Shown here: positions 29,359 to 42,779 of the stretch, one piece after another
Numbering within the stretch: position 1 is the stretch's first letter
How the letters are laid out: every line of letters starts with the position of its first letter
Origin: Streptomyces sp. RKAG293
Lineage (GTDB): Bacteria > Actinomycetota > Actinomycetes > Streptomycetales > Streptomycetaceae
DNA: 64,000 bases
Reading direction: 5' to 3'
NCBI RefSeq assembly: GCF_023701745.1
Contig: NZ_JAJOZB010000001.1
Coordinates: 4,842,501 to 4,906,500 of the forward strand
Program-made: the position numbers and the translations under genes
The notes under the pieces: generated by a model
What the model was told of the DNA's origin: nothing
The model's database searches: none
Seen by the model: only the letters and a program-made list of their open reading frames with translations

Positions 29359-29526
29359 ATGACCCGCAACCTCGGCGACCGAATTCTGACCGCCATGATC
29401 GGCCGGAAGACTGCCTCGGCCGGCTGTGCTCCCGACTGCGAGAGGATTCCCTGCCGCTACGGCAACCAGTTCTGCTACAAGACGTGCTGCTTCACGCCTA
29501 ACTGTGGCTATTCCTGCAGCAACTAG
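29359..29526 (+). CDS. 55-aa cysteine-rich precursor peptide (eight Cys)
   Basis: ATG 29359 lies seven bases after GAAGGA. The product starts MTRNLGDRILTAMIGRKTAS. Its second half has Cys at 23, 27, 32, 39, 43, 44, 49 and 53, including a CC pair, with Tyr, Pro and Asn between them. Cleavage after ASA (residues 19-21) would release a 34-aa core with eight Cys, enough for four disulfides. The leader has no hydrophobic core, so normal Sec targeting is doubtful. The context of signal peptidase, ThiF enzyme, M50 protease, thioredoxin-like protein and ABC exporter marks it as a RiPP-like precursor. I do not recognise a known family. Confidence 0.82.
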   Translation: MTRNLGDRILTAMIGRKTASAGCAPDCERIPCRYGNQFCYKTCCFTPNCGYSCSN

Positions 29527-29560
29527 ACCTGCCGACCGAACCACAATCGAGAGGATGAAC

Positions 29561-29686
29561 ATGTCTGACGAGAACTCGTGCACCGAGATCATCGAGGTGC
29601 CGGCAGGGGATGCCGCTGCCGATCTGATCGAGATCCGGCTGCTCGACAGGATCGAGACGATCCGTGTGAAGGCTTCCTCGGGCTGA
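29561..29686 (+). CDS. 41-aa acidic peptide ending in SSG
   Basis: ATG 29561 follows GAGAGG by six bases. The product begins MSDENSCTEIIEVPAGD, continues with an acidic Leu/Ile-rich stretch (LIEIRLLDRIETIRV) and ends KASSG. It has a single Cys. Because E1/ThiF enzymes activate the C-terminal carboxylate of a protein or peptide, often Gly, this peptide is a plausible substrate or carrier for the ThiF enzyme encoded next. It could equally be a second precursor. It is 34 bp after the Cys-rich peptide gene. Confidence 0.72.
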   Translation: MSDENSCTEIIEVPAGDAAADLIEIRLLDRIETIRVKASSG

Positions 29687-29704
29687 TGTCCCACCACTGA
29701 AGGC

Positions 29705-29738
29705 GCCGGCGGGGCAGGATTCAACCCGCCCCGCCGGC
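29705..29738 (+). terminator. Hairpin between peptide genes and enzyme genes
   Basis: GCCGGCGGGGC (29705-29715) and GCCCCGCCGGC (29728-29738) are exact inverted repeats with a 12-nt loop. It sits after the peptide gene and before the ribosome site of the ThiF gene. It probably acts as a partial terminator or mRNA stabiliser, giving more peptide than enzyme. Confidence 0.65.
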
Positions 29739-29761
29739 CCCACCTACGAGGAGCCAGCGCC

Positions 29762-30838
29762 ATGAAAAACCCAATGGTGAAAGAAGAGCATCTTCCCTAC
29801 CGGCATGAGGACGGCACGGTCCGCATCGGAGGCGAGCTCTACGGGTTGGCCGCCGCTATCCGTGATCCACACGGGTGGATCTGGGCCTCACTCACCCTGA
29901 TGGACGGTCGGCACACCGAACCGGAGATCGCCGAACTGCTCCGTCTTCAGTACCCCGCCCTGACGCCGGAGACCGCTGCCGGACTGGTCGCGCAGCTCAT
30001 TGCCACTGGCTACTGCGAGGACGCCGCTGCCCGCATTCCGGAGGAACTCAGCGCTCACGAAATGGCGAAGTACAGCCGAAACCAGGCATTCTTCCGACGT
30101 GTCGGCCTGAATCAGGAACAGGGGCCCTGGGACGCCCACATCGCCCTGAGTAGATCGCGGGTCCTCATCCTCGGACTCGGCGGCACGGGAAGCCACGCGG
30201 CCTGGTCGCTCGCCGCTGCTGGCGTCGGCCACATCCACTGTGTGGACGGCGACACGGTGGAACTCAGCAATCTGACCAGGCAGGCGCTATACACGGAGGC
30301 CGACCTCGACCGCGCGAAAGCCGAGGTCGCGGCGGAAAAGCTCCGTGGTGTGAACTCCGCTGCCGAGGTCACCTTCGACCTCGGCAGGGTGGAGACCCAG
30401 GAGCAGCTGGCGCACCTGCTTGCAGGGTATGACGTGCTCGCCCTCTGCGCGGACGAACCCGACTCGGAAACGATCCGTGGCTGGGCCTCGGCCGCCTGTG
30501 CCGAGGCCCGCATCCCATGGGTCGGAGGTGGATACAACGGCCCGCTGGTGACCGTTGGCGTCTTCGGCCCGGACGGTCCCTGTTTCCAGTGCCTTGCCGC
30601 GGGCGAGGAGGCCCTGATCCCGCCAGGATCGACCCCACCCCATCTGGGTGGTCCGGGAGTGATCGCCCCGTCCGCCGCGATCTCCGGCCACTTGGTCGCC
30701 TACGAGACCATCGCACTGCTCACGGGGATCTCACGAAACCCGCCGGGGTACGTGCGCGGACTCAATCTCATCTCCCCGGACGATCACGTCCACGTACGGC
30801 ATCCGGCTCTGCCGGAGTGCGGAAACTGCAACGCATAG
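29762..30838 (+). CDS. E1/ThiF-like adenylating enzyme with PqqD-like N-terminus
   Basis: The 358-aa protein has an N-terminal domain (about residues 8-95, HEDGTVRIGGELYG...LLRLQYPALTPETAAGLVAQL) like PqqD/RRE peptide-binding folds. An E1 Rossmann domain follows, with the ATP motif GLGGTG (138-143), acidic VDGDTVELSNLTRQ and KAEVAAEKL. Four Cys form a zinc site: C274/C277 (CFQC) and C353/C356 (CGNC). Related enzymes such as MccB and PaaA activate RiPP precursors as acyl-adenylates. GAGGAG precedes ATG 29762. It is probably the central modifying enzyme of locus 1. Confidence 0.85.
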   Translation: MKNPMVKEEHLPYRHEDGTVRIGGELYGLAAAIRDPHGWIWASLTLMDGRHTEPEIAELLRLQYPALTPETAAGLVAQLIATGYCEDAAARIPEELSAHEMAKYSRNQAFFRRVGLNQEQGPWDAHIALSRSRVLILGLGGTGSHAAWSLAAAGVGHIHCVDGDTVELSNLTRQALYTEADLDRAKAEVAAEKLRGVNSAAEVTFDLGRVETQEQLAHLLAGYDVLALCADEPDSETIRGWASAACAEARIPWVGGGYNGPLVTVGVFGPDGPCFQCLAAGEEALIPPGSTPPHLGGPGVIAPSAAISGHLVAYETIALLTGISRNPPGYVRGLNLISPDDHVHVRHPALPECGNCNA

Positions 30839-30858
30839 GGTCTTCGAAGACAGGACAC

Positions 30859-32163
30859 ATGGCGGACACCGAAGCACACTGTGTCGTATTCCATCCTCTG
30901 GGATTCCGGGCTGACGGCCGCCACTGGATCGTCGGACGGAGCGACACCGGACCGTATGTGACGGTCCCCCAGGAGGGTATGGCGGCCATCCGGCTGCTCA
31001 AGGACGGCATGTCGCCTCCCGAAGTGCAGCAGCGAATGCTGAACGAATCGGGGAAGAGCATTGACGTCGAACAGTTCGTCAGGTCCATGGCCGCGCTCGG
31101 ATTCATCCGCTCCATGGACGGGCACGGCATCGACTCCCCGCCGGCCGCGCGCCCGACGCTTCCGCGCGTTCGACCCGGGCATGTCCGGTGGATGCTCAGC
31201 CCCGTTCTCCACGGGGTGCTCGTCACGGTTGCCCTGACCGGTCTGATCATGATGGCAGCCAGACCCGAGCTGCGCCCCCACTGGGGCGATCTGCTCTGGA
31301 GTGATCACGGAAGTCCGGCCCTGCTGGGGGACGCGGCCCTGACCTGGCTGCTGATCCTCTTTCATGAACTCGCCCACCTGTTCACCGCCAGGGCAGCGGA
31401 CGTTCCCGGCGTCATCAGGATGGGCACGCGTCTTCAGTTCCTCGTGGTTCAGACGGATGTCTCAGGGGTCTGGCTACGCGAAAGGCCGACCCGGATCGCG
31501 GTGTATCTCTCCGGCATGATGCTGGATCTCACTGTGTTCGGCGGTTGCATCCTCCTGGAGGCGGCAACCGGCTCCAGCCGACTTCTTTCGGTCGTGGCTG
31601 TCACGGAACTCGGCGCAGTCGCAGCTGAGTTCATGGTCTTCATGCGGACTGACCTCTACTTCCTGCTGCAGGACCTGCTCGGCTGCCGCAACCTGTACCG
31701 CGATGCCCTGCAGTACTGCCAGCACGTCCTGACCAGGTGCCTCGGCCGGGCGACGTCCTCGCCACTCTCCGGACTGGACCGCGTCGAGCGGCGCAGCGTG
31801 CGCACCTACGCAGTGCTCATGGCCATCGGTTCCGCCGCGTGCGTGCTACTGGTCTTTCTGGGCTGGACGAACGTGACGCTGGTGCTGCTGGCGCACTCGG
31901 CCGACGAATTCCTCACCGCGCCGAACTGGCTCTCAGTCGCGGACGCGCTGGCAACGACATTGATGCTGATAGGGGTCCAGGCGCTGTGGGCCAACGCATG
32001 GTGGCGCAGGCACGGCACCGCTGTCCGGAACAGCTGGAGGCCGTCCGGGCGGCCCCGGCGGCGAGGCAAACATGACGGTATCCCACTTCCCACTGGGCAT
32101 CCGACTCACAACCCGGAAGGCCCCGAGGGCTCGTGGCAGCCCCGGGTCTCCGAAGGCAGCTGA
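30859..32163 (+). CDS. M50-family metalloprotease with PqqD-like N-terminus
   Basis: The 434-aa protein has a soluble N-terminal domain (residues about 10-85) that resembles PqqD/RRE domains, then six or more membrane helices. The zinc motif HELAH (residues 169-173) lies in a helix, and a later Asp in RTDLYFLLQDLLG fits the third ligand of site-2 proteases. M50 enzymes cut within membranes or remove leaders. Here a role in precursor cleavage, immunity or signalling is inferred from its place directly after the ThiF gene. ATG 30859 was chosen for the short gap. Confidence 0.8.
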   Translation: MADTEAHCVVFHPLGFRADGRHWIVGRSDTGPYVTVPQEGMAAIRLLKDGMSPPEVQQRMLNESGKSIDVEQFVRSMAALGFIRSMDGHGIDSPPAARPTLPRVRPGHVRWMLSPVLHGVLVTVALTGLIMMAARPELRPHWGDLLWSDHGSPALLGDAALTWLLILFHELAHLFTARAADVPGVIRMGTRLQFLVVQTDVSGVWLRERPTRIAVYLSGMMLDLTVFGGCILLEAATGSSRLLSVVAVTELGAVAAEFMVFMRTDLYFLLQDLLGCRNLYRDALQYCQHVLTRCLGRATSSPLSGLDRVERRSVRTYAVLMAIGSAACVLLVFLGWTNVTLVLLAHSADEFLTAPNWLSVADALATTLMLIGVQALWANAWWRRHGTAVRNSWRPSGRPRRRGKHDGIPLPTGHPTHNPEGPEGSWQPRVSEGS

Positions 32164-33104: not shown

Positions 33105-34100
33105 TCACGAGCCGTCGGAGAACTCGGGTGAGGTGGCGATCAGGTAGCCGAGCTGGGTGCGGTTGGTGCTGCCGAGGTGGGTGGCGAGTTTGGCGATGTG
33201 GGCGCGGCAGGTGCGCACGCTCATGCCGAGGCGGCGGGCGATGCTCTCGTCCATGAAGCCCTCGACGAGGAGCCGGGCAATGCTCCGCTGCACCTCGGGG
33301 ATGGGGTCGCCCGGTGTCGGATCCGTGCCCGCGGGTTCGTTCAGCGGGGTTGCCCGGTCCCAGGCGTGTCCGAAGACTCCGGCCAGATAGCTCACCAGGG
33401 CGGGCTCACGGATCTCCAGGGCGGCCTGGCGGTCGCTGCGTGCGGGGACGAACGCGGTCGTCCGGTCGAAAATGATGAGGCGCTCGAAGAGCTCGTCGAG
33501 GGTGCGGAACTCGATCCCTCCCACTTCAGCCATTCTCTCGATGTAGGCCATGGTGGGTGCGCTGTGGCGCACGGTGTGCTGATACAGCGTGCGGGTTCGC
33601 ACCCCCCGATCGGCGAGTGCCCTGGCGCGTTCCAGCGCGGAGGTCAGGGTCGCCGGCGTCCGGCCGCCGCCGGGCTGGACGGTGATCGATTCCTCCTTGC
33701 ACGCGGTGGCCGCTTCTTCGACGGCTGCGTCGATGGCGGGCAGGCCCACGAGAAGGGTGACGCTGGCGCGGGAGCGATGGGCGTGCGCCTCGTACATCGC
33801 CTGGATCGGTCCGAGTGCGACCTGAAGGTCAGCAGCGCGCCGTTGGCGCTGCTGGATCTCCTCTTCGAGGGGGCGCACCAACATGGCCAGGGCCGTGGAG
33901 GGACGGATAGGGGCGACAAGGCCGTCGTAGCCCGGAATCCGCTGCAGTAGTTCCATACGGGTCAGGCATGACGGCATTCCTTCCTCGCTGGCCGAACCCT
34001 GGCGCACGCAATCGGCGTAGAACTGCACTCCGATATCGCACAGCCCGAGGTCGATTCGACCGTCTTTGTCCGATTTGGAGCACATTGGTTCGGGGCTCAC
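33105..34100 (-). CDS. LuxR-family transcriptional regulator
   Basis: The 331-aa protein has a C-terminal LuxR HTH (FMDESIARRLGMSVRTCRAHIAKLATHL, in pieces) and a long N-terminal part with a predicted coiled coil (RPLEEEIQQRQRRAADLQVAL) and a phospholipase-D-like or TrmB-like effector region. Similar regulators accompany lanthipeptide and other RiPP clusters in Streptomyces. It is divergent from the small secreted peptide and ThiF genes of locus 2. ATG 34085 is an alternative start with a better ribosome site. Confidence 0.8.
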   Translation of the reverse strand: MSPEPMCSKSDKDGRIDLGLCDIGVQFYADCVRQGSASEEGMPSCLTRMELLQRIPGYDGLVAPIRPSTALAMLVRPLEEEIQQRQRRAADLQVALGPIQAMYEAHAHRSRASVTLLVGLPAIDAAVEEAATACKEESITVQPGGGRTPATLTSALERARALADRGVRTRTLYQHTVRHSAPTMAYIERMAEVGGIEFRTLDELFERLIIFDRTTAFVPARSDRQAALEIREPALVSYLAGVFGHAWDRATPLNEPAGTDPTPGDPIPEVQRSIARLLVEGFMDESIARRLGMSVRTCRAHIAKLATHLGSTNRTQLGYLIATSPEFSDGS

Positions 34101-34205
34101 CTTCTGGCGCTGTAACTAGTGCCGAACTCTAACCGTTGATCGAGGCTGTTGCTCCGGGTCAAACTTCAATCACCGGCCGGGGGAAACGCGCCGGATCGGC
34201 AAGAT

Positions 34206-34382
34206 ATGAATGGGGGAAGGGTGTTCATTACCTTCCGCAAGAGCGTCCTTGTATTGACCGCGGTGGCAGCGGCCTGGGGAATTTTCACTGGGTTGTGCGC
34301 CGGTTCCGTCGGTGCGGTCGAAGCGCGAGATGTGAGCTTCGGACCAGTTCAGGACCATGTCTGGGACATTCGCTCAGCATGA
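34206..34382 (+). CDS. Small protein with signal-peptide-like segment (58 aa)
   Basis: From ATG 34206 the product has a basic start, a hydrophobic core (SVLVLTAVAAAWGIFTGLCAG) and a 20-odd-residue acidic tail ending DHVWDIRSA. It would be secreted or anchored. It lies between the LuxR regulator and the ThiF gene on the same strand as the latter. GTG 34221, directly after GGGGGAAGG, is another possible start. I cannot assign a family. It may be a further peptide of locus 2. Confidence 0.45.
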   Translation: MNGGRVFITFRKSVLVLTAVAAAWGIFTGLCAGSVGAVEARDVSFGPVQDHVWDIRSA

Positions 34383-34465
34383 TCCCAGGCAAGGCCGGCC
34401 GTGGGACGGGACGTAGGGCCAGTCCTGGCAGAGCCGGATGAAAATCCCCGGTGAGGAGGACTGTG

Positions 34466-35521
34466 ATGGAACGCGTACGCCTTCGGCAGAGGGTCATGAA
34501 GTTCATCGATGGTGACCGTATAAAGCTCATCATGCGGGATCGGGGGATCTCCTTGCCGGACAGTCCGGCGAATCGCCGGGTTGTCGCGCAGCTGGCAGAA
34601 GGCGCCAGTAGACGTGAGGTTCTTGATGGATCCTCTGGAATCTCTGCCGAGGACCTAGAATCCGCCCTTGGAGCCCTGGATGGAATCAGGGCACTGGAAC
34701 GGTTGGATGTTCCGCACGATTTCACGGATGCCGATCTGGAGCGGAACTCCCGTACGGTCGAGTTTCTTTCGGCGGAAGAGAATGGCCGCGGGAATCGATT
34801 CGAGATGCAGGCCCGCGTCCGCGACGCCCGGGTCCTGCTGATCGGCACCGGTGGCCTCGGCAGCTGGATCGCCTACGGCCTGGCCGCAGCCGGGGTGGGT
34901 TCGCTCCGGCTGGTCGACCCCGACGTGGTGTCCCTGTCCAACCTCAACCGCTCGATCCTCTACGACGAGGAGACGGTGGGGCGGTCCAAGGCCGAAGTGG
35001 CACGCGAGCGCCTGACGGCTTTCGCGCCCAGGCTGCGGGTGGAGTGCTGCCTTGAGTACGTCACGGCGCCCGATGACGTTGCCCGTCTCGCCGAGGGCTG
35101 TGACCTGATCATCAACGTGGCGGATCAGCCCCACCGCACGATCCGGCGGTGGGTCGCTGCGGGCGCCCTGTTGGGCGGCGTTCCGGTTCTGGAGGCCGGT
35201 GGCGGCCGGGTCGGACCGTTCTTCCTTCCCGGTGTGTCCAGCTGCAGCGGCTGCCTCCAGGCATCCCAGGCGGAGCCCGGCAGCCCGCGCGACGTCCTCA
35301 TGGAGCAGGACAACGTTTTCCCGGGCCGTTCCGCAGGGTCTCTCGTCGCCTATCCGGCCGCCGAGGCGGGCGTCATTGTCCTGGAGGCGTACCGCTTCCT
35401 GTCGGGAATGGCGGAGCCGGCCACCAGGAACGCCTACCTCGCCGAAGGAAAGAGCTTCTTCGATGGCAAGCGCATTGAGCTTCCTCGCCACCCGCGCTGT
35501 CGCGTGTGTGCCGAGAGATGA
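34466..35521 (+). CDS. E1/ThiF-like adenylating enzyme
   Basis: The 351-aa enzyme starts at ATG 34466, six bases after GAGGAGG. An N-terminal winged-helix-like part (residues 1-115) precedes the E1 domain with ATP motif GTGGLG (127-132), LVDPDVVSLSNLNRS and KAEVARERL. Zinc-site Cys are C260/C263 (CSGC) and C345/C348 (CRVC). It is related in plan to, but clearly different from, the locus 1 enzyme. The two 20-aa peptides follow directly, so they are its likely substrates, by analogy with MccB (microcin C7) and PaaA (pantocin A). Confidence 0.86.
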   Translation: MERVRLRQRVMKFIDGDRIKLIMRDRGISLPDSPANRRVVAQLAEGASRREVLDGSSGISAEDLESALGALDGIRALERLDVPHDFTDADLERNSRTVEFLSAEENGRGNRFEMQARVRDARVLLIGTGGLGSWIAYGLAAAGVGSLRLVDPDVVSLSNLNRSILYDEETVGRSKAEVARERLTAFAPRLRVECCLEYVTAPDDVARLAEGCDLIINVADQPHRTIRRWVAAGALLGGVPVLEAGGGRVGPFFLPGVSSCSGCLQASQAEPGSPRDVLMEQDNVFPGRSAGSLVAYPAAEAGVIVLEAYRFLSGMAEPATRNAYLAEGKSFFDGKRIELPRHPRCRVCAER

Positions 35522-35579
35522 ACTTCCGGAGGGCGTCGGCCTTCCGGAGAGAATTCATAAGGGCAGGAGGTGTTTCAGC

Positions 35580-35642
35580 ATGGAGATCGTCGAGGTCGTG
35601 GCCGAGGAGTTCGAGGCCCTCAACAACATGGAGTACGCGTAA
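35580..35642 (+). CDS. 20-aa precursor peptide, copy 1
   Basis: ATG 35580 lies downstream of AGGAGGTG. The peptide is MEIVEVVAEEFEALNNMEYA: very acidic, no Cys, with an EE pair and an NN pair. A near-identical gene lies 124 bp downstream with the same ribosome site. Being duplicated, translated from strong sites and placed behind a ThiF enzyme, it looks like a RiPP precursor or a carrier peptide. Canonical microcin C precursors end in Asn, and this one ends Tyr-Ala. Confidence 0.72.
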   Translation: MEIVEVVAEEFEALNNMEYA

Positions 35643-35703
35643 TTCGATGGGGTGCTGCCCTTGAGAATTTCTGCACCGATATGGCGGGAGGAGGTGTTTC
35701 AGC

Positions 35704-35766
35704 ATGGAGATCGTCGAGATCATGGCCGAGGAGTTCGAGGCCCTCAACAACGTTGAGTACGCGTAA
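35704..35766 (+). CDS. 20-aa precursor peptide, copy 2
   Basis: ATG 35704 lies downstream of GGAGGAGGTG. The peptide MEIVEIMAEEFEALNNVEYA differs from copy 1 at only three positions (V6I, V7M, M17V), all conservative. Selection on the peptide is suggested because the changes keep charge, the EE and NN pairs and the YA end. A large hairpin at 35811-35849 follows it. Confidence 0.72.
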   Translation: MEIVEIMAEEFEALNNVEYA

Positions 35767-35810
35767 TGCGAAGGGGCACCGCCCCTGAAAATCACCGCTC
35801 GATGTGATGT

Positions 35811-35849
35811 GAGGGGTGCCGTGCGCCGTCGAGGCGCAGGGCACCCCTC
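35811..35849 (+). terminator. Nested hairpin after the 20-aa genes
   Basis: GAGGGGTGCC (35811-35820) pairs with GGCACCCCTC (35840-35849), and inside it GCGCC pairs with GGCGC. It sits between the small genes and the ribosome site of the hydrolase. As in locus 1, it could limit read-through so that peptides outnumber enzymes. Confidence 0.65.
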
Positions 35850-35875
35850 ATCCGCTCTTCCAGGAGGAGATCCAC

Positions 35876-37531
35876 GTGGCCCGGAGCCGAAGCCTCACCG
35901 CCACTCCCGCGGTGGTCGAGGGGGCGCAACGTGCCCGAATCGTTAAGCGCGCGGTCGGATCGTCGCAGGCCACGGCGACTGTCCTTGTCGCCCAGGGCGA
36001 CGACGTTCTACTGGAAGGACTCATCGGCCCAGAGGGATCGGGTCTGCGGATGCCCGCCGGCCCGCACGATGACGTAGAGCTGCACGGCCTGCTGGCCGAC
36101 GGCCGCGCCGTGCTGTCCACTCTCGACGGGACCTTCCGTACCCTGCGCGCTGTACAAAGGCACGAATCCGAAGTCCTTGCGACTCTGGATGAACCTGGCC
36201 AGGTCGTTGTCCAAGGAAGATTTGTTTACCATGCAGGCCCTGCCGGCGTGACGCGCATCACGCCCGGAGAAAGTAGGAAGCGGCAGAGCTTCCCCTTTTC
36301 CGTATCGTCCTTTGCGGCGAGCGATGACGGCCGGGTGATCGCTGGAATCAAAGGATCTGGTAGCCGGTCAGAAGTAGTTCTGGAAAGCCGACTTGAAGCC
36401 CTTCGCTCACTGCTGAAGGCGTCGGATTCGGCCGTGCCGACTGAACTCACGCTCTGTCCGGACGGCTGTCATCTGTCGGTCGCCGTCCGTACGGTCGAAG
36501 GCCGCGAAGCCCATATCTTCGACACCGCGACCGGCTCCCGGCTCCGCATCGTGACGGGTGTCGGCCGGACTGCTGTCCTCATCTCCGGCTGCACGTTGCT
36601 GGCAGTGGACGATTCCTGGCCCTATGCCAAGGTCCTGGAGGTGCCCTGCGCCGGCGGCACCATGGACTCCCACACCATCGACGCCTCCGTCCTGGCCCTC
36701 CTCGAAGATGCCAGCGGGCCGCTGGTCCACTGCACGCGCCCGGACCACCCGCCGTCAGTGGTCCGCCTCGCCGAACTCATCGACCAGGCGGGCAGCCAGG
36801 ATCCGCCCCGGCACCACGCGGTCACCACTCGCTGGGGAAGCCTGCGCGTCCTGACCGTCCCTGCGGCCGATCCGGTCGGCGACATCGTCATGCTGCACGG
36901 AGGTCCGTTCGGTGTGTGGATCCCGCGCTGGGATCCCCAGATGCAGCTCCTGACGGCGCACGGTTATCGCGTCCATCAGGTGGAAGCCCCGTACACGGCC
37001 TCCTTGCGCCGCGCCCACACCCGCTTCGTACCAGGCGACTTCGGCAGCAAGGACGTCGAGAGCATCACCGACGCCGTCACCGCACTGGCCTCCCAACGGC
37101 CCCTGCTGATGTACGGGTTCAGCTACGGAGGGCTCCTCGCCGCCCGAACCTCCGCCCGGCTCCCCGGCATCGTGAACGGCGTTTTCCTCCAGAGCGCTCT
37201 GTGGCGCAGCCAGGACCTGCAGCGGCTGATCGATGACGGGGTGCCTGCCCCGGGGGATCTGCGCTCGTTCCTCGCGCACGCCTTTCCCGGGGGACAGGTG
37301 CACCTGCCCGAGGTGCGGCTGCGCGCCGAGCTGCCGACCGCAGTCGTGCACGGGACCGATGACCTCATCGCTCCCGTCGATCTGGTCGAGGCAGCGTGCG
37401 CCGCGGCTCCTGAGATCGTCCTGACCCGCCTGCCCGGCGAGGGGCACATACCCCGGCGGGCTTCATCCGTGGTCCAGGCACTCCACGCAATGAAGACATG
37501 GCTCCAGCACTGCGAAGGCACCTTGCGATGA
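35876..37531 (+). CDS. Alpha/beta hydrolase of prolyl-oligopeptidase (S9) type
   Basis: The 551-aa protein starts at GTG 35876 after AGGAGG. Residues 1-320 look like a degenerate beta-propeller. The C-terminal part is an alpha/beta hydrolase with oxyanion motif MLHGGPFGVW, nucleophile Ser in YGFSYGGLL, Asp in VHGTDDLIAP and His in GEGHIPRR. S9 enzymes cut short peptides, which fits trimming, release or detoxification of a 20-aa product. Its TGA overlaps the next ATG (ATGA, 37528-37531). Confidence 0.82.
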   Translation: MARSRSLTATPAVVEGAQRARIVKRAVGSSQATATVLVAQGDDVLLEGLIGPEGSGLRMPAGPHDDVELHGLLADGRAVLSTLDGTFRTLRAVQRHESEVLATLDEPGQVVVQGRFVYHAGPAGVTRITPGESRKRQSFPFSVSSFAASDDGRVIAGIKGSGSRSEVVLESRLEALRSLLKASDSAVPTELTLCPDGCHLSVAVRTVEGREAHIFDTATGSRLRIVTGVGRTAVLISGCTLLAVDDSWPYAKVLEVPCAGGTMDSHTIDASVLALLEDASGPLVHCTRPDHPPSVVRLAELIDQAGSQDPPRHHAVTTRWGSLRVLTVPAADPVGDIVMLHGGPFGVWIPRWDPQMQLLTAHGYRVHQVEAPYTASLRRAHTRFVPGDFGSKDVESITDAVTALASQRPLLMYGFSYGGLLAARTSARLPGIVNGVFLQSALWRSQDLQRLIDDGVPAPGDLRSFLAHAFPGGQVHLPEVRLRAELPTAVVHGTDDLIAPVDLVEAACAAAPEIVLTRLPGEGHIPRRASSVVQALHAMKTWLQHCEGTLR

Positions 37532-38769
37532 CCATCCCCACCCTCCCCAAACACGTCCCCACCCCGGGCGCTCCCGCATTCGCCCAACGTTTGCGCGCGC
37601 TCATGACCGCCGGGACCCCGGCCGTCTGCCCCATTCACGTCGGGCTCGGTGATCCCGTGCCCGGCTCCAGCAGTCTGGCGACGATCACCCATGCCATCGC
37701 CCGCCACCTTGTGGACGGCACCGCCGACCAGCTGCCCGTCTTCAACACCGCCCCACCCCCGGCCCTGCGCATCCTTCAAGCAGCCAGTTGGGCCCGGCTC
37801 GATGCCATGACCGGCGACTTCGACCAGATGCCCGCCGACCTGGCCGGCGACCTCTGGCACTGCGTGGGCGCGGTGTGCGCAAGCCCCGGCGAACTGACCC
37901 GCGCCGAAGGGCGCGCCGCCAGTGACCTTCTGCTGCGGCTCGGCTACCCCCGACGCGCCGGTGAGGTCCTCGGCCTGCTGGACGCCGATATCCACACCCA
38001 CGTGTTCCACCCCGAGACCGTGCGGGCAGAGCTCGCCGTCCTGTTCCGGCTGCATCCCGGAGCGCAGGACATCCTGGAGGAACGGGCGCTGCAGGCCGCC
38101 GCCGACGAGAGCCTGCCGCCCCGGGCCCGTCTGGCACTCGCCAACTTCGTGGTGGTGCGCAACGGAAAGCGCGGAACGCAGACTCTGGCCCTGCACACGG
38201 CGGCCTGGTTCGGGCAGCAGGCGATGGCGCAGATCACCGGCAGCGGCATGGACCGTCACCTGGCGGAGCACACCCTGTACCGGGCCATCGCCTACGTGCC
38301 GTTCCTGCGCAAGGACGGCGATCAGACCATGGAACTCCTGGACCGGGCCGCGCTCGCCCTGGAGGACGCTTGCCCGTCGCCGGATGCCGGCTTGCAGCGC
38401 CTTGCCTGGGAAGACCATGCCTTCCCCATGTTCGAGACGCTGTCCAAGACCCTTCTCGCCCAGGGAAAGACCGAGCAAGCGCTGGCATCGAGCGAACGTC
38501 TGACCCACCTCAGCCCCTACGACCACCGGGCCTGGGCTGTCCGCGCGCAAGCACTCGTGGCAGCGGGGCACCTCGAAGACGCAGCCGTCGCATGGGAGCA
38601 GACGCTTCCGCAGGGCGGCCTGCCCGTCGCCGCGGCGCTCTTCTACCTCGGCTGGGTCCACCAGCAACTCGGGTCACCCGCCGAAGCGGCCGAGCACTAC
38701 CGGCGCTCCCTCGCCGTGGACCCCACCGCCCCCGTCGTCAACGAGCATCTGGAAGCGGTGACGGCGTGA
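37528..38769 (+). CDS. TPR-repeat protein
   Basis: This 413-aa protein is almost entirely helical. It ends with clear tetratricopeptide repeats (ALASSERLTHLSPYDHRAWA, AALFYLGWVHQQLGSPAEAA, EHYRRSLAVDPTAPVV). The N-terminal 200 residues are not recognised. It has no membrane segment or catalytic motif. It overlaps both neighbours (ATGA upstream, GTGA downstream) and so is made in step with them. It may act as a scaffold in the locus 2 pathway. Confidence 0.75.
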   Translation: MTIPTLPKHVPTPGAPAFAQRLRALMTAGTPAVCPIHVGLGDPVPGSSSLATITHAIARHLVDGTADQLPVFNTAPPPALRILQAASWARLDAMTGDFDQMPADLAGDLWHCVGAVCASPGELTRAEGRAASDLLLRLGYPRRAGEVLGLLDADIHTHVFHPETVRAELAVLFRLHPGAQDILEERALQAAADESLPPRARLALANFVVVRNGKRGTQTLALHTAAWFGQQAMAQITGSGMDRHLAEHTLYRAIAYVPFLRKDGDQTMELLDRAALALEDACPSPDAGLQRLAWEDHAFPMFETLSKTLLAQGKTEQALASSERLTHLSPYDHRAWAVRAQALVAAGHLEDAAVAWEQTLPQGGLPVAAALFYLGWVHQQLGSPAEAAEHYRRSLAVDPTAPVVNEHLEAVTA

Positions 38770-40016
38770 GCATCCCCGCCCGCATTGCACCCGGGCCGGC
38801 ACCCGCTACACACCGACGCACGGACTTCATCCGCCTGTGGGTGGCTCAGACCTTCTCGAACCTCGGCGATGCGATCTTCCTCGCCTCCGTCGCCTGGTCG
38901 GCGACCTCGCTGTTCGGCGATGTCCAGGGCGCCATCAGCGTCGGGCTGGCGCTCTTCCTGCCGACGGCCCTGCTGCTCCCGCTGGCCGGCGTCATCGTCG
39001 ACCGCTACCCGCGCCACCGGCTGCTGCTGAACACCGACGCCGTCCGGGCCATCGTCACGGCAACCCTGGGGATCTTCCTGATCACCCAGCCGATGTCCCT
39101 GCCGCTGCTGCTCGCCACCGTGGTCATCGTCCAGGTCACCGGCCTGCTCTTCCAGCCGAGCATGCACTCGCTGCTCGGGCAGGTCGCGCAGGACGACACG
39201 ACTCTGCTCCGGTTCGACTCCTGGCTGCTCGCCTCACGGATGATCGCAACGATCCTCGGGCCGCTCGTCGCCGGCTTCGTCATCGTCCATGGGCTCGGCA
39301 CCGCCCTGTTGATCGACGCCACCACGTTCTGCGTCTCCTTGCTCGGCCTCTTGGCGGCCCGGCGTCTGCTCACCACCCCATCACCGGCGGGCCCCGCCAC
39401 TCGCACCGGCATCCTGCGCGAGGCGAAAGAGGGCGTGAGGGTCGCTCTCGCCGACCCGGTCTTCCGCAAGATCGCCCCCACCCTGCCCATGATCGACCTG
39501 GTCGGGGCCGCGGTGACCCTTCTCCTCCCCGCGCTGCTCCTGCAGCACGGCGTCATCGACCCCAAGGGCTACGGCCTGCTGATCTCGGCGTGGGCCGTCG
39601 GGCGCTTCTCCGGTCTTCTCCTGCTGCGCATACCGCGCATGCGGGCGTACCGCGGGACCCTGATGGCGGTGAACTGCGCGGCCCAGGCACTGACCGTCGT
39701 CGCCATCGCCCTCACGCCCAGCCTGCCCCTCGCCGTCGTCCTGTTCGTCGTCCTCGGCATCCCTTCGGGCGGTGCGTCGGTCAGCGTCAGCGCCTACATC
39801 CAGACGCAGATCCCCAACGAACTGCGCGGCCGGGTCTTCGCCCTCCTGCAGACCACCGTCACCGCCTCCGTAGCACTCGGGCCGCTCCTCGCCGGCGGCA
39901 TCACCGCCTGGCGCAGCCCGAGCAGCGCGCTGGTACTCATGGGCCTGGCGCTGTTCCTGGTCGGTGTGCCCCCGCTCATCAGCAGGAGCGTGCGCCAGTG
40001 GCAGCCCGTCAAGTGA
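38766..40016 (+). CDS. MFS exporter
   Basis: The 416-aa protein starts at GTG 38766, overlapping the stop of the TPR gene. It has about 12 membrane helices and the MFS motif GVIVDRYPRHRLLLNTD between TM2 and TM3, as in MFS_3 (enterobactin-exporter-like) proteins. In microcin C and pantocin pathways an MFS protein exports the product or gives immunity. The same role is likely here. Its stop overlaps the flavin-reductase start (GTGA). Confidence 0.85.
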   Translation: MSIPARIAPGPAPATHRRTDFIRLWVAQTFSNLGDAIFLASVAWSATSLFGDVQGAISVGLALFLPTALLLPLAGVIVDRYPRHRLLLNTDAVRAIVTATLGIFLITQPMSLPLLLATVVIVQVTGLLFQPSMHSLLGQVAQDDTTLLRFDSWLLASRMIATILGPLVAGFVIVHGLGTALLIDATTFCVSLLGLLAARRLLTTPSPAGPATRTGILREAKEGVRVALADPVFRKIAPTLPMIDLVGAAVTLLLPALLLQHGVIDPKGYGLLISAWAVGRFSGLLLLRIPRMRAYRGTLMAVNCAAQALTVVAIALTPSLPLAVVLFVVLGIPSGGASVSVSAYIQTQIPNELRGRVFALLQTTVTASVALGPLLAGGITAWRSPSSALVLMGLALFLVGVPPLISRSVRQWQPVK

Positions 40017-40594
40017 GAACGATGGTCACGTCCGACCGGGCCTCGGCCCCCGCACGATCAGGGTCGGTTGCGCGCGGGCCCGGCCTCGCAGAAGCCGGCA
40101 CGGAGCTGCCCACCGCCGCCCGATTCCGCGCCTCCTCCCGGCTGTGGCCCACCGGTGTCGCCGTACTCACCACGAAGGACGCCACCGGAGCGCCGCACGG
40201 CACCACGGTCAACTCCCTCACCACGATTTCCCTCGACCCGCCGCTGCTCCTCGTGTCTCTGGGGTCGAGTTCGCGAGCCCTGGAACACATCTCCGACACA
40301 CGGGTCTTCGCTCTCAACGTGTTGTCACGCGATCAGGAACCGCTCGCCCAGAACTTCGCCCAGCCCGGACGCCGAGGTGGCGCCGACGCGTTCGCGGAGA
40401 TACCCACGGAAGCGGGATCCCGGACCGGCTGCCTCCTGCTCACCGACTCGATCGGCTACTTCGAGTGCGGAGCGCAGAGGATCGAGGCTGTCGCGGACCA
40501 CTGCCTGGTGATCGGCGCCGTTCTGTCCTGCGGAGACCTGCAGACGGCGCCACCCCTCGTCTTCGCCAACGCCGCCTTTCGACAACTCCGCTGA
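40013..40594 (+). CDS. Flavin reductase-like protein
   Basis: The 193-aa protein has the flavin_reductase-like fold: FRASSRLWPTGVAVLTTKD, HGTTVNSLTTISLDPPLLLV and RVFALNVLSRDQEPLAQNFA. It should bind FMN/FAD and, with NAD(P)H, supply reduced flavin. No partner monooxygenase is encoded nearby, so it may serve an enzyme elsewhere or act directly. GTG 40013 overlaps the MFS stop, making it the last gene of the coupled set. Confidence 0.84.
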   Translation: MRTMVTSDRASAPARSGSVARGPGLAEAGTELPTAARFRASSRLWPTGVAVLTTKDATGAPHGTTVNSLTTISLDPPLLLVSLGSSSRALEHISDTRVFALNVLSRDQEPLAQNFAQPGRRGGADAFAEIPTEAGSRTGCLLLTDSIGYFECGAQRIEAVADHCLVIGAVLSCGDLQTAPPLVFANAAFRQLR

Positions 40595-42701: not shown

Positions 42702-42708
42702 TGTGTGG

Positions 42709-42779
42709 AGCGAGTGACGGGAATCGAACCCGCGCTCTGAGCTTGGGAAGCTCATGTTCTACCATTAAACTACACTCGC
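42709..42779 (-). tRNA. tRNA-Gly (anticodon CCC)
   Basis: The minus strand folds into a cloverleaf. The acceptor stem is GCGAGTG/CACTCGC, the D arm is in GTTTAATGGTAGAAC, the anticodon stem is TGAGC/GCTCA with loop TTCCCAA (anticodon CCC), and the T arm is CGGGT-TCGATTC-CCGTC. CCA is not encoded. The 3' part is duplicated in degenerate form at 40646-40738. Confidence 0.93.

Follow-up and report, generated by a model that had tools for sequence, protein, structure and literature searches.

A rare Streptomyces cassette with tandem 20-residue peptide genes beside a predicted RRE-ThiF enzyme

A 64 kb stretch of Streptomyces sp. RKAG293 DNA (the window; positions 4,842,501 to 4,906,500 of contig NZ_JAJOZB010000001.1, from a genome of 9.27 Mb in three contigs) carries a cassette in which the gene for a ThiF-like adenylyltransferase, here ThiF2, is followed by two genes for near-identical 20-residue peptides. 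Sequence comparison indicates that this cassette is rare, that its genes are conserved together and that the precursor gene has been multiplied. Since it recurs in Streptomyces flavotricini with at least four peptide copies, it probably makes a peptide natural product. With moderate confidence we read it as a rare RRE-ThiF ("TLAT") locus for a ribosomally synthesized and post-translationally modified peptide (RiPP), RRE denoting a RiPP recognition element, in which ThiF2 would adenylate the 20-mer, most likely at Ala20, a hydrolase would trim it, a flavin reductase would act in a redox step and a major facilitator superfamily (MFS) protein would export the product.

The ThiF2 gene (34466-35521; window coordinates, forward strand unless stated) is followed by those for the peptides MEIVEVVAEEFEALNNMEYA (35580-35642) and MEIVEIMAEEFEALNNVEYA (35704-35766), an arrangement proposed in a sequence-only reading of the window and borne out here. 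The twins differ at three conservative sites (V6I, V7M and M17V), with no synonymous changes. Among open reading frames (ORFs) of 12-40 residues on both strands of the window, Shine-Dalgarno (SD) matches of at least 6 bases precede 15 starts, matches of at least 7 bases precede five and matches of at least 8 bases precede two; these two are the twins, each with an 8-base match. The peptides contain no Cys, Trp, Lys, Ser or Thr, and neither window peptide has Arg, Lys or Trp. Residues E9, E10, E12 and E18 are kept in every copy seen, with the Glu-Glu pair followed by Phe, and position 17 is Met, Val or Ile. It had been remarked that the peptides contain Glu-Glu and Asn-Asn yet end in Tyr-Ala rather than Asn; the Tyr-Ala end is found in all copies, the C-terminal residue being Ala20. 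The calculated mass of unmodified peptide 1 is 2329.049 Da, and would become 2311.039 Da on loss of water or 2658.102 Da on addition of AMP (no formyl group counted). No NCBIfam model matched the 20-mer. A leader homology of residues 1-13 to peptides of M50-associated ThiF loci (e.g. locus L017) was considered and dropped, since in a profile test the likeness to other ThiF leaders was no better than that of shuffled sequences (p 0.17-0.18 for the twins and 0.11 for the S. flavotricini peptide).

The ThiF2 homologue of S. flavotricini NGL1 (locus L028) is 74% identical over its full length and lies in a cassette of the same gene order, in which identity is 61% for the regulator, approximately 54-55% for the hydrolase, 73% for the MFS protein and 49% for the reductase; for the tetratricopeptide repeat (TPR) protein two comparisons gave 71% over 405 residues and 70% over 409 residues. 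This locus is one of the best 80 of 594 stretches matched by alignment patterns in a scan of genome contigs, a list from which other carriers may be absent; the next-best locus among them has a ThiF of 37% identity over part of the protein. When window positions 24001-46000 were compared with the S. flavotricini locus, DNA similarity was confined to approximately 33142-40264, indicating a bounded cassette, with the right edge less well tested because the S. flavotricini sequence extends just 0.8 kb or so beyond the reductase gene. Four near-identical copies of the S. flavotricini peptide gene, encoding MQFVEIVAEEFEALNNIEYA, are visible in tandem, one of them cut short by a run of N, giving at least four copies, and a pattern search of the whole genome returned those four and no others. 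Every complete copy in both species is open. Far from being absent beside homologous ThiF genes, the small ORFs thus number at least four beside the only close homologue among the matches listed, and the peptide and ThiF pair, sought in other actinobacteria, is present in S. flavotricini.

Conservation of the peptide genes is sharply delimited. Whether the window twins or copies from the two species are compared, identity is 78-94% in the SD region and 92-94% in the coding sequence, and falls to 9-49% in the flanks, which include N-bearing stretches with N scored as mismatch; SD and coding sequence are conserved and the spacers are not. Codon differences, three within the window and four between species, are all non-synonymous. 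The 16 residues that window peptide 1 has in common with the S. flavotricini peptide are encoded by the same codon in every case, as against only 129/259 for the two ThiF proteins; if codons are drawn independently according to their usage in window genes, the probability of the former is approximately 1e-4. Codon preference of highly expressed genes, gene conversion or recent transfer could explain this identity.

Searches with ThiF2 found one of 35 genomes in the genus (at 1e-40), one of 396 in the phylum (1e-32) and one of 248 among relatives of S. flavotricini (1e-45), and every one of these single hits came from the query genome or from S. flavotricini; in the order, nine of 391 genomes matched at 1e-30, the eight others at 30-39% identity. 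A hydrolase search of the order at 1e-20 found one genome of 293, namely the source genome. Six exact patterns gave zero matches in genome contigs, and plasmids yielded neither a ThiF of at least 60% identity nor a peptide match. The other 79 of the 80 best loci contained no hydrolase, TPR or reductase match at 1e-6. No third carrier was found in these searches, which sampled rather than exhausted the databases, and no description of the cassette was found in open-licence full texts on ThiF RiPPs.

ThiF2 matches PF00899 (1.4e-44), and none of the NCBIfam ThiF/MoeB models reaches cut-off. An AlphaFold2 model built from 24 aligned sequences (mean predicted local distance difference test score, pLDDT, 89.8) was compared with known structures using Foldseek and a second aligner. 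The best fold match was Escherichia coli MccB (Z 32.1, root mean square deviation 3.5 over 329 residues, model residues 2-350), which supports the earlier likening of the layout to that of microcin C. The next RRE-bearing match was PaaA (Z 27.8), also the best profile match to the ThiF2 family alignment (6.8e-63). MoeB (Z 28.1) and ThiF align only from residue 84 or later, whereas the N domain is aligned with MccB from residue 1 and with PaaA from residue 11. No Pfam model matched this domain, in which the predicted order is strand-strand-strand-helix-helix-helix. The model thus points to an N-terminal RRE, an assignment made from the MccB and PaaA alignments and the order of strands and helices because most other alignments omit the N domain.

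Residues R162, K175, D220, C260, C263 and C345 are invariant in 28/28 ThiF sequences, and C348 is found in at least 90%; C260/C263 and C345/C348 form CxxC pairs of apparent zinc type. The spacing of R162, K175 and D220 (13 and 45 residues) is that of R167, K180 and D225 in EnfB, which the RRE-ThiF review text names for ATP and Mg (PMC12250964). ThiF2 accordingly has a ThiF-like domain with the ATP and Mg residues and an adjoining short precursor gene, conserved in one other species only, as expected of an RRE-ThiF (TLAT) locus. In printed alignments the CxxC pairs are found in MccB and MoeB, together with the ADxP Asp in the former and an equivalent Asp in the latter, and PaaA lacks both Asp and CxxC pairs. 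Because ThiF2 shares these features with MccB and not with PaaA, our reading leans, by analogy, towards C-terminal activation as in MccB and EnfB, and MccB-like working of ThiF2 is the leading inference. In a tree, ThiF2 and its S. flavotricini homologue form a long branch of their own (support 1.0) with locus L029 as nearest sister (0.945); relatives with M50 proteases, including the first ThiF locus of the window, and relatives with 19-residue TRK(A/T)S peptides form separate branches.

From the genes observed, the conservation of the cassette with its peptides, and the enzyme's catalytic residues and predicted fold, we infer a chemistry that would run from translation and binding of the peptide, through adenylation at a particular site, to trimming and export under regulation. 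The RRE of ThiF2 would bind the N-terminal part of the 20-residue peptides, and the enzyme would spend ATP on adenylating a carboxylate of the peptide, Ala20 being the likeliest site. Capture of the acyl-adenylate would then bring about ring closure or addition of a group, the nucleophile being either internal (backbone or side chain) or an outside amine. Since the peptides lack Cys, Trp, Lys, Ser and Thr, the candidates, if Ala20 is activated, are a backbone amide, an external amine, or the N terminus once cleavage has freed it. In the 21-residue precursor EnfA the C-terminal carboxylate is activated and closed by a backbone amide, according to the same review text (PMC12250964), and a side-chain nucleophile is thus not needed. 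The S9-like hydrolase is the likely trimming enzyme, the flavin reductase may supply reduced flavin for a redox change or make that change itself, and the MFS protein would export the product. Several near-identical precursor genes with strong ribosome sites, and a hairpin that separates the last of them from the next enzyme gene, could ensure that more precursor than enzyme is made. Control of the cassette probably lies with a divergent regulator that has a putative secreted pro-peptide of its own. A bolder version, which we regard as speculative and rather doubtful, would place the cassette in a ThiF-RiPP class not yet known, in which tandem codon-frozen 20-residue genes feed MccB-fold activation of the C-terminal Ala for a transformation unprecedented in the family, either redox-coupled ring closure or carrier-peptide chemistry, with a secreted Trp-motif peptide and regulator as the switch.

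Several observations weigh against the RRE-ThiF reading with Ala20 activation. A Pfam scan of the cassette proteins revealed no oxygenase partner for the flavin reductase; the structure model of the hydrolase had a pLDDT of 45.8 and was left out of the fold search; the twins are no closer to leaders of other ThiF systems than shuffled sequences are (p approximately 0.17); and the C-terminal Ala, preceded by Tyr, offers no obvious side-chain nucleophile. Conservation is drawn from one species pair, since only two carriers are known, and the absence of synonymous change might reflect recent transfer or conversion of the peptide stretch. The retained Glu residues would also suit a pantocin-like route, in which E9/E10, E12 or E18 would have its side chain activated by ThiF2 and would then serve for cyclisation of a peptide with leader and follower parts. 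PaaA is given in the review text as an RRE-ThiF acting on a Glu-Glu pair (PMC12250964), and its rank among fold and profile matches, together with the Glu-Glu of the peptides, agrees with such a route; ThiF2, however, keeps an ADxP Asp and CxxC pairs that are missing from PaaA in the printed alignment, there is no Glu-Glu-Asn core, and the scanned cassette proteins include neither a PaaB-type 2-oxoglutarate-Fe(II) oxygenase nor an EamA transporter, so that we consider it unlikely. The absence of recognisable peptide-crosslinking partners, alongside a redox protein and a hydrolase, could instead indicate that the 20-mer is a reused scaffold on whose activated C terminus a small molecule is built and then released by the hydrolase. 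Reuse of a peptide as carrier for small-molecule assembly is known from pearlin-type pathways, and the presence of several copies that hardly differ, even in their codons, within or between species would fit it. Neither a peptide aminoacyl-tRNA ligase nor a pyridoxal phosphate-dependent or other assembly enzyme was detected in the cassette by Pfam, and position 17 varies as a core residue might, which makes the carrier route quite improbable.

Nucleotide conservation beyond the needs of the protein sequence raises the question of whether the repeated element is a regulatory repeat in RNA or DNA, open by chance, rather than a gene. Conservation nevertheless spans ribosome site and ORF and drops on either side, every complete copy is open, the twins hold the sole SD matches of such length before short ORFs in the window, and related ThiF genes have adjoining short ORFs of their own; a non-coding repeat is on these grounds very improbable. 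Action of ThiF2 on another substrate, as a sulfur-carrier or housekeeping E1 enzyme with the peptides belonging to something else, would accord with a ThiF domain common to MoeB and ThiF, but the lack of an NCBIfam ThiF/MoeB match at cut-off, the RRE-like N domain and the co-conservation of ThiF2 with the peptides leave it little credence.

The hydrolase, TPR, MFS and reductase genes overlap or almost touch, in keeping with their earlier description as a coupled set. The first (35876-37531) encodes a candidate leader peptidase whose best Pfam match is Abhydrolase_1 (7.8e-10), with Peptidase_S9 (0.0082) below cut-off; the assignment as a hydrolase holds, and the S9-type label given previously is better replaced by alpha/beta hydrolase resembling S9. 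A putative triad of Ser416, Asp496 and His524, assigned from motifs, is unchanged in the S. flavotricini protein, and there is a weak profile match to aminopeptidase chain 3azo_A (E 0.0019). The TPR protein (37528-38769) matches TPR_2 (4.2e-11) and other TPR models, the predicted MFS exporter (38766-40016) matches MFS_3 (1.2e-23) and, below cut-off, TIGR00900 (1.1e-43), and the flavin reductase (40022-40594), of the two-component monooxygenase type, matches PF01613 (3.8e-35) and, below cut-off, a StyB-type model (1.9e-31). No YcaO cyclodehydratase was present among the cassette proteins scanned with Pfam. The span given in the sequence-only reading, 34466-40594, leaves out the divergent regulator (33105-34100) and the small ORF (approximately 34206-34382), both of which travel with the cassette.

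Between the peptide and hydrolase genes lies a strong predicted RNA hairpin with stem GAGGGGUGCC/GGCACCCCUC (35809-35852, ends approximate; -44.5 kcal/mol, z -6.3, 0/200 shuffles). S. flavotricini likewise has one between the last peptide copy and the hydrolase gene (-35.3 kcal/mol, z -5.4, 0/200 shuffles), whilst folds of the spacers between and after the twins are unremarkable (z -0.4 and -1.5). Hairpins were also observed in both of the TRK(A/T)S-type loci folded, there between peptide and ThiF genes (z -4.4 and -3.6). Terminator-like sites numbered four against 2.8 expected; because it has no T run the peptide hairpin is not among them, and it can be regarded only as a putative attenuator or processing site. 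A promoter scan found none.

The divergent regulator, on the reverse strand, matches GerE (6.3e-07) and, below the Pfam cut-off, DUF7436 (1.1e-05), and its S. flavotricini homologue sits in the same place; relatives occur in 109 of 150 genomes of the family at 1e-35, the source genome counted. The small ORF beside it, a candidate pro-peptide paired with the regulator, starts at ATG 34206 or GTG 34221 and encodes a stretch resembling a signal peptide and, as its D-x-x-W motif, DHVWD. It was not reported by the SD-filtered scan, indicating that it has no good ribosome site; its S. flavotricini counterpart ends PRDLGWD. A divergent small ORF with a hydrophobic stretch near the N terminus and between one and five D-x-x-W motifs adjoins 25 of 33 related regulators, the window's included (30 loci of the family search, L113-L142, one of them the window, plus L028, L020 and L044). 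Random control windows gave eight matches; the draws numbered 3000 at most, since some, whose number was not counted, were skipped, and the contrast is exploratory because the criterion was set after the first results. From these sequences the LuxR/DUF7436-type regulator and secreted Trp-motif ORF look like a widespread peptide-pheromone pairing, of which no description was found in open-licence full texts on Streptomyces regulators with peptide pheromones. Trp motifs seen beside such regulators in Streptomycetaceae include DSGWG, DTVWD, DIAWF and DPVWD, and are repeated.

The first ThiF locus of the window (29359-32163) lies outside the cassette, though adjacent to it. It contains a Cys-rich 55-residue ORF, a 41-residue ORF ending VKASSG, a ThiF with an N domain that weakly matches a PaaA-like one and a protein for which a daptide intramembrane metalloprotease model scores below cut-off. 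Just downstream of the cassette region is a tRNA-Gly (ccc) gene (42706-42779), a possible landing site.

Almost every RRE-ThiF system studied so far has shown a bond of another kind, and microcin C, pantocin A, GrcB, EnfB and IndF are none of them actinobacterial; the words "Streptomyces" and "actino" do not occur in the main text of the RRE-ThiF review (PMC12250964). The cassette is a bounded, testable unit with one enzyme, one cheaply synthesised 20-residue substrate and two source species. If the regulator does pair with the small secreted ORF, this would give a handle for turning on a silent pathway.

Short precursor-like ORFs with a ribosome site adjoin 24/45 related ThiF loci and, in another set, 7/13 (sorted by eye). 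They fall mainly into TRK(A/T)S peptides of 19 residues, some with MFS genes, I-x-I-R-x-L-D-K-I-E-T peptides, mostly with M50 proteases, and short MKIQAKKVE peptides of Brevibacillus; by sequence the window peptides are outside all three. The 19-residue peptides, such as MSVAMTTRKASIAGQANEG, lie just upstream of a second ThiF family in Streptomyces, Kutzneria and Goodfellowiella, with an MFS gene in some (L015 7279-7338, L020 7163-7222, L033, L036, L039, L041, L044, L045, L053 and L075). Three of these actinobacterial loci (L015, L020 and L041) resemble the cassette in short peptide, RRE-ThiF and MFS protein, and L020 also in a related divergent regulator and D-x-x-W small ORF; their ThiF proteins, however, are approximately 26-29% identical, the peptide is unrelated, and the hydrolase, TPR and reductase set was not detected. 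A Salmonella plasmid record (L022 5882-5935) has a 17-residue ORF, MKFTKHATSNAKLALVG, upstream of ThiF and MFS genes, the ThiF covering the query at 28.5% identity, and in Streptosporangium (L090 5450-5672) two different ThiF-associated peptides lie in tandem upstream of one ThiF.

Of the characterized systems, pantocin A (PaaP/PaaA/PaaB/PaaC) shares with the cassette an RRE-ThiF enzyme and Glu-Glu in the peptide, and differs in its Glu-Glu-Asn core, PaaB oxygenase and EamA transporter and in the missing ADxP Asp and CxxC pairs of PaaA. IndF (indolylamide) and GrcB (thiolactone) are alike in that an RRE-ThiF activates the carboxylate of a short precursor, but the cassette peptides contain neither Trp nor Cys. 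Enterofaecin (EnfA/EnfB) resembles the cassette in a precursor of about 21 residues and an RRE-ThiF with the same R/K/D spacing, whereas the (V/I)RKA leader motif and WWIVI core are absent here, and one MFS gene stands against four transporters. With microcin C the cassette has in common a short precursor, an MccB-fold RRE-ThiF with the same catalytic residues and an MFS exporter, which in microcin C is MccC. Its precursor, however, has 20 residues, occurs in tandem copies and ends in Ala rather than Asn, and the basic three-gene set of microcin C includes nothing comparable to the hydrolase, TPR protein and flavin reductase. The earlier judgement that neither the microcin C nor the pantocin A scheme fits is upheld by the lack of a C-terminal Asn, of a Glu-Glu-Asn core, and of a PaaB-type oxygenase or EamA transporter, and the best reading of the cassette is as neither of these but as another ThiF-type RiPP variant.

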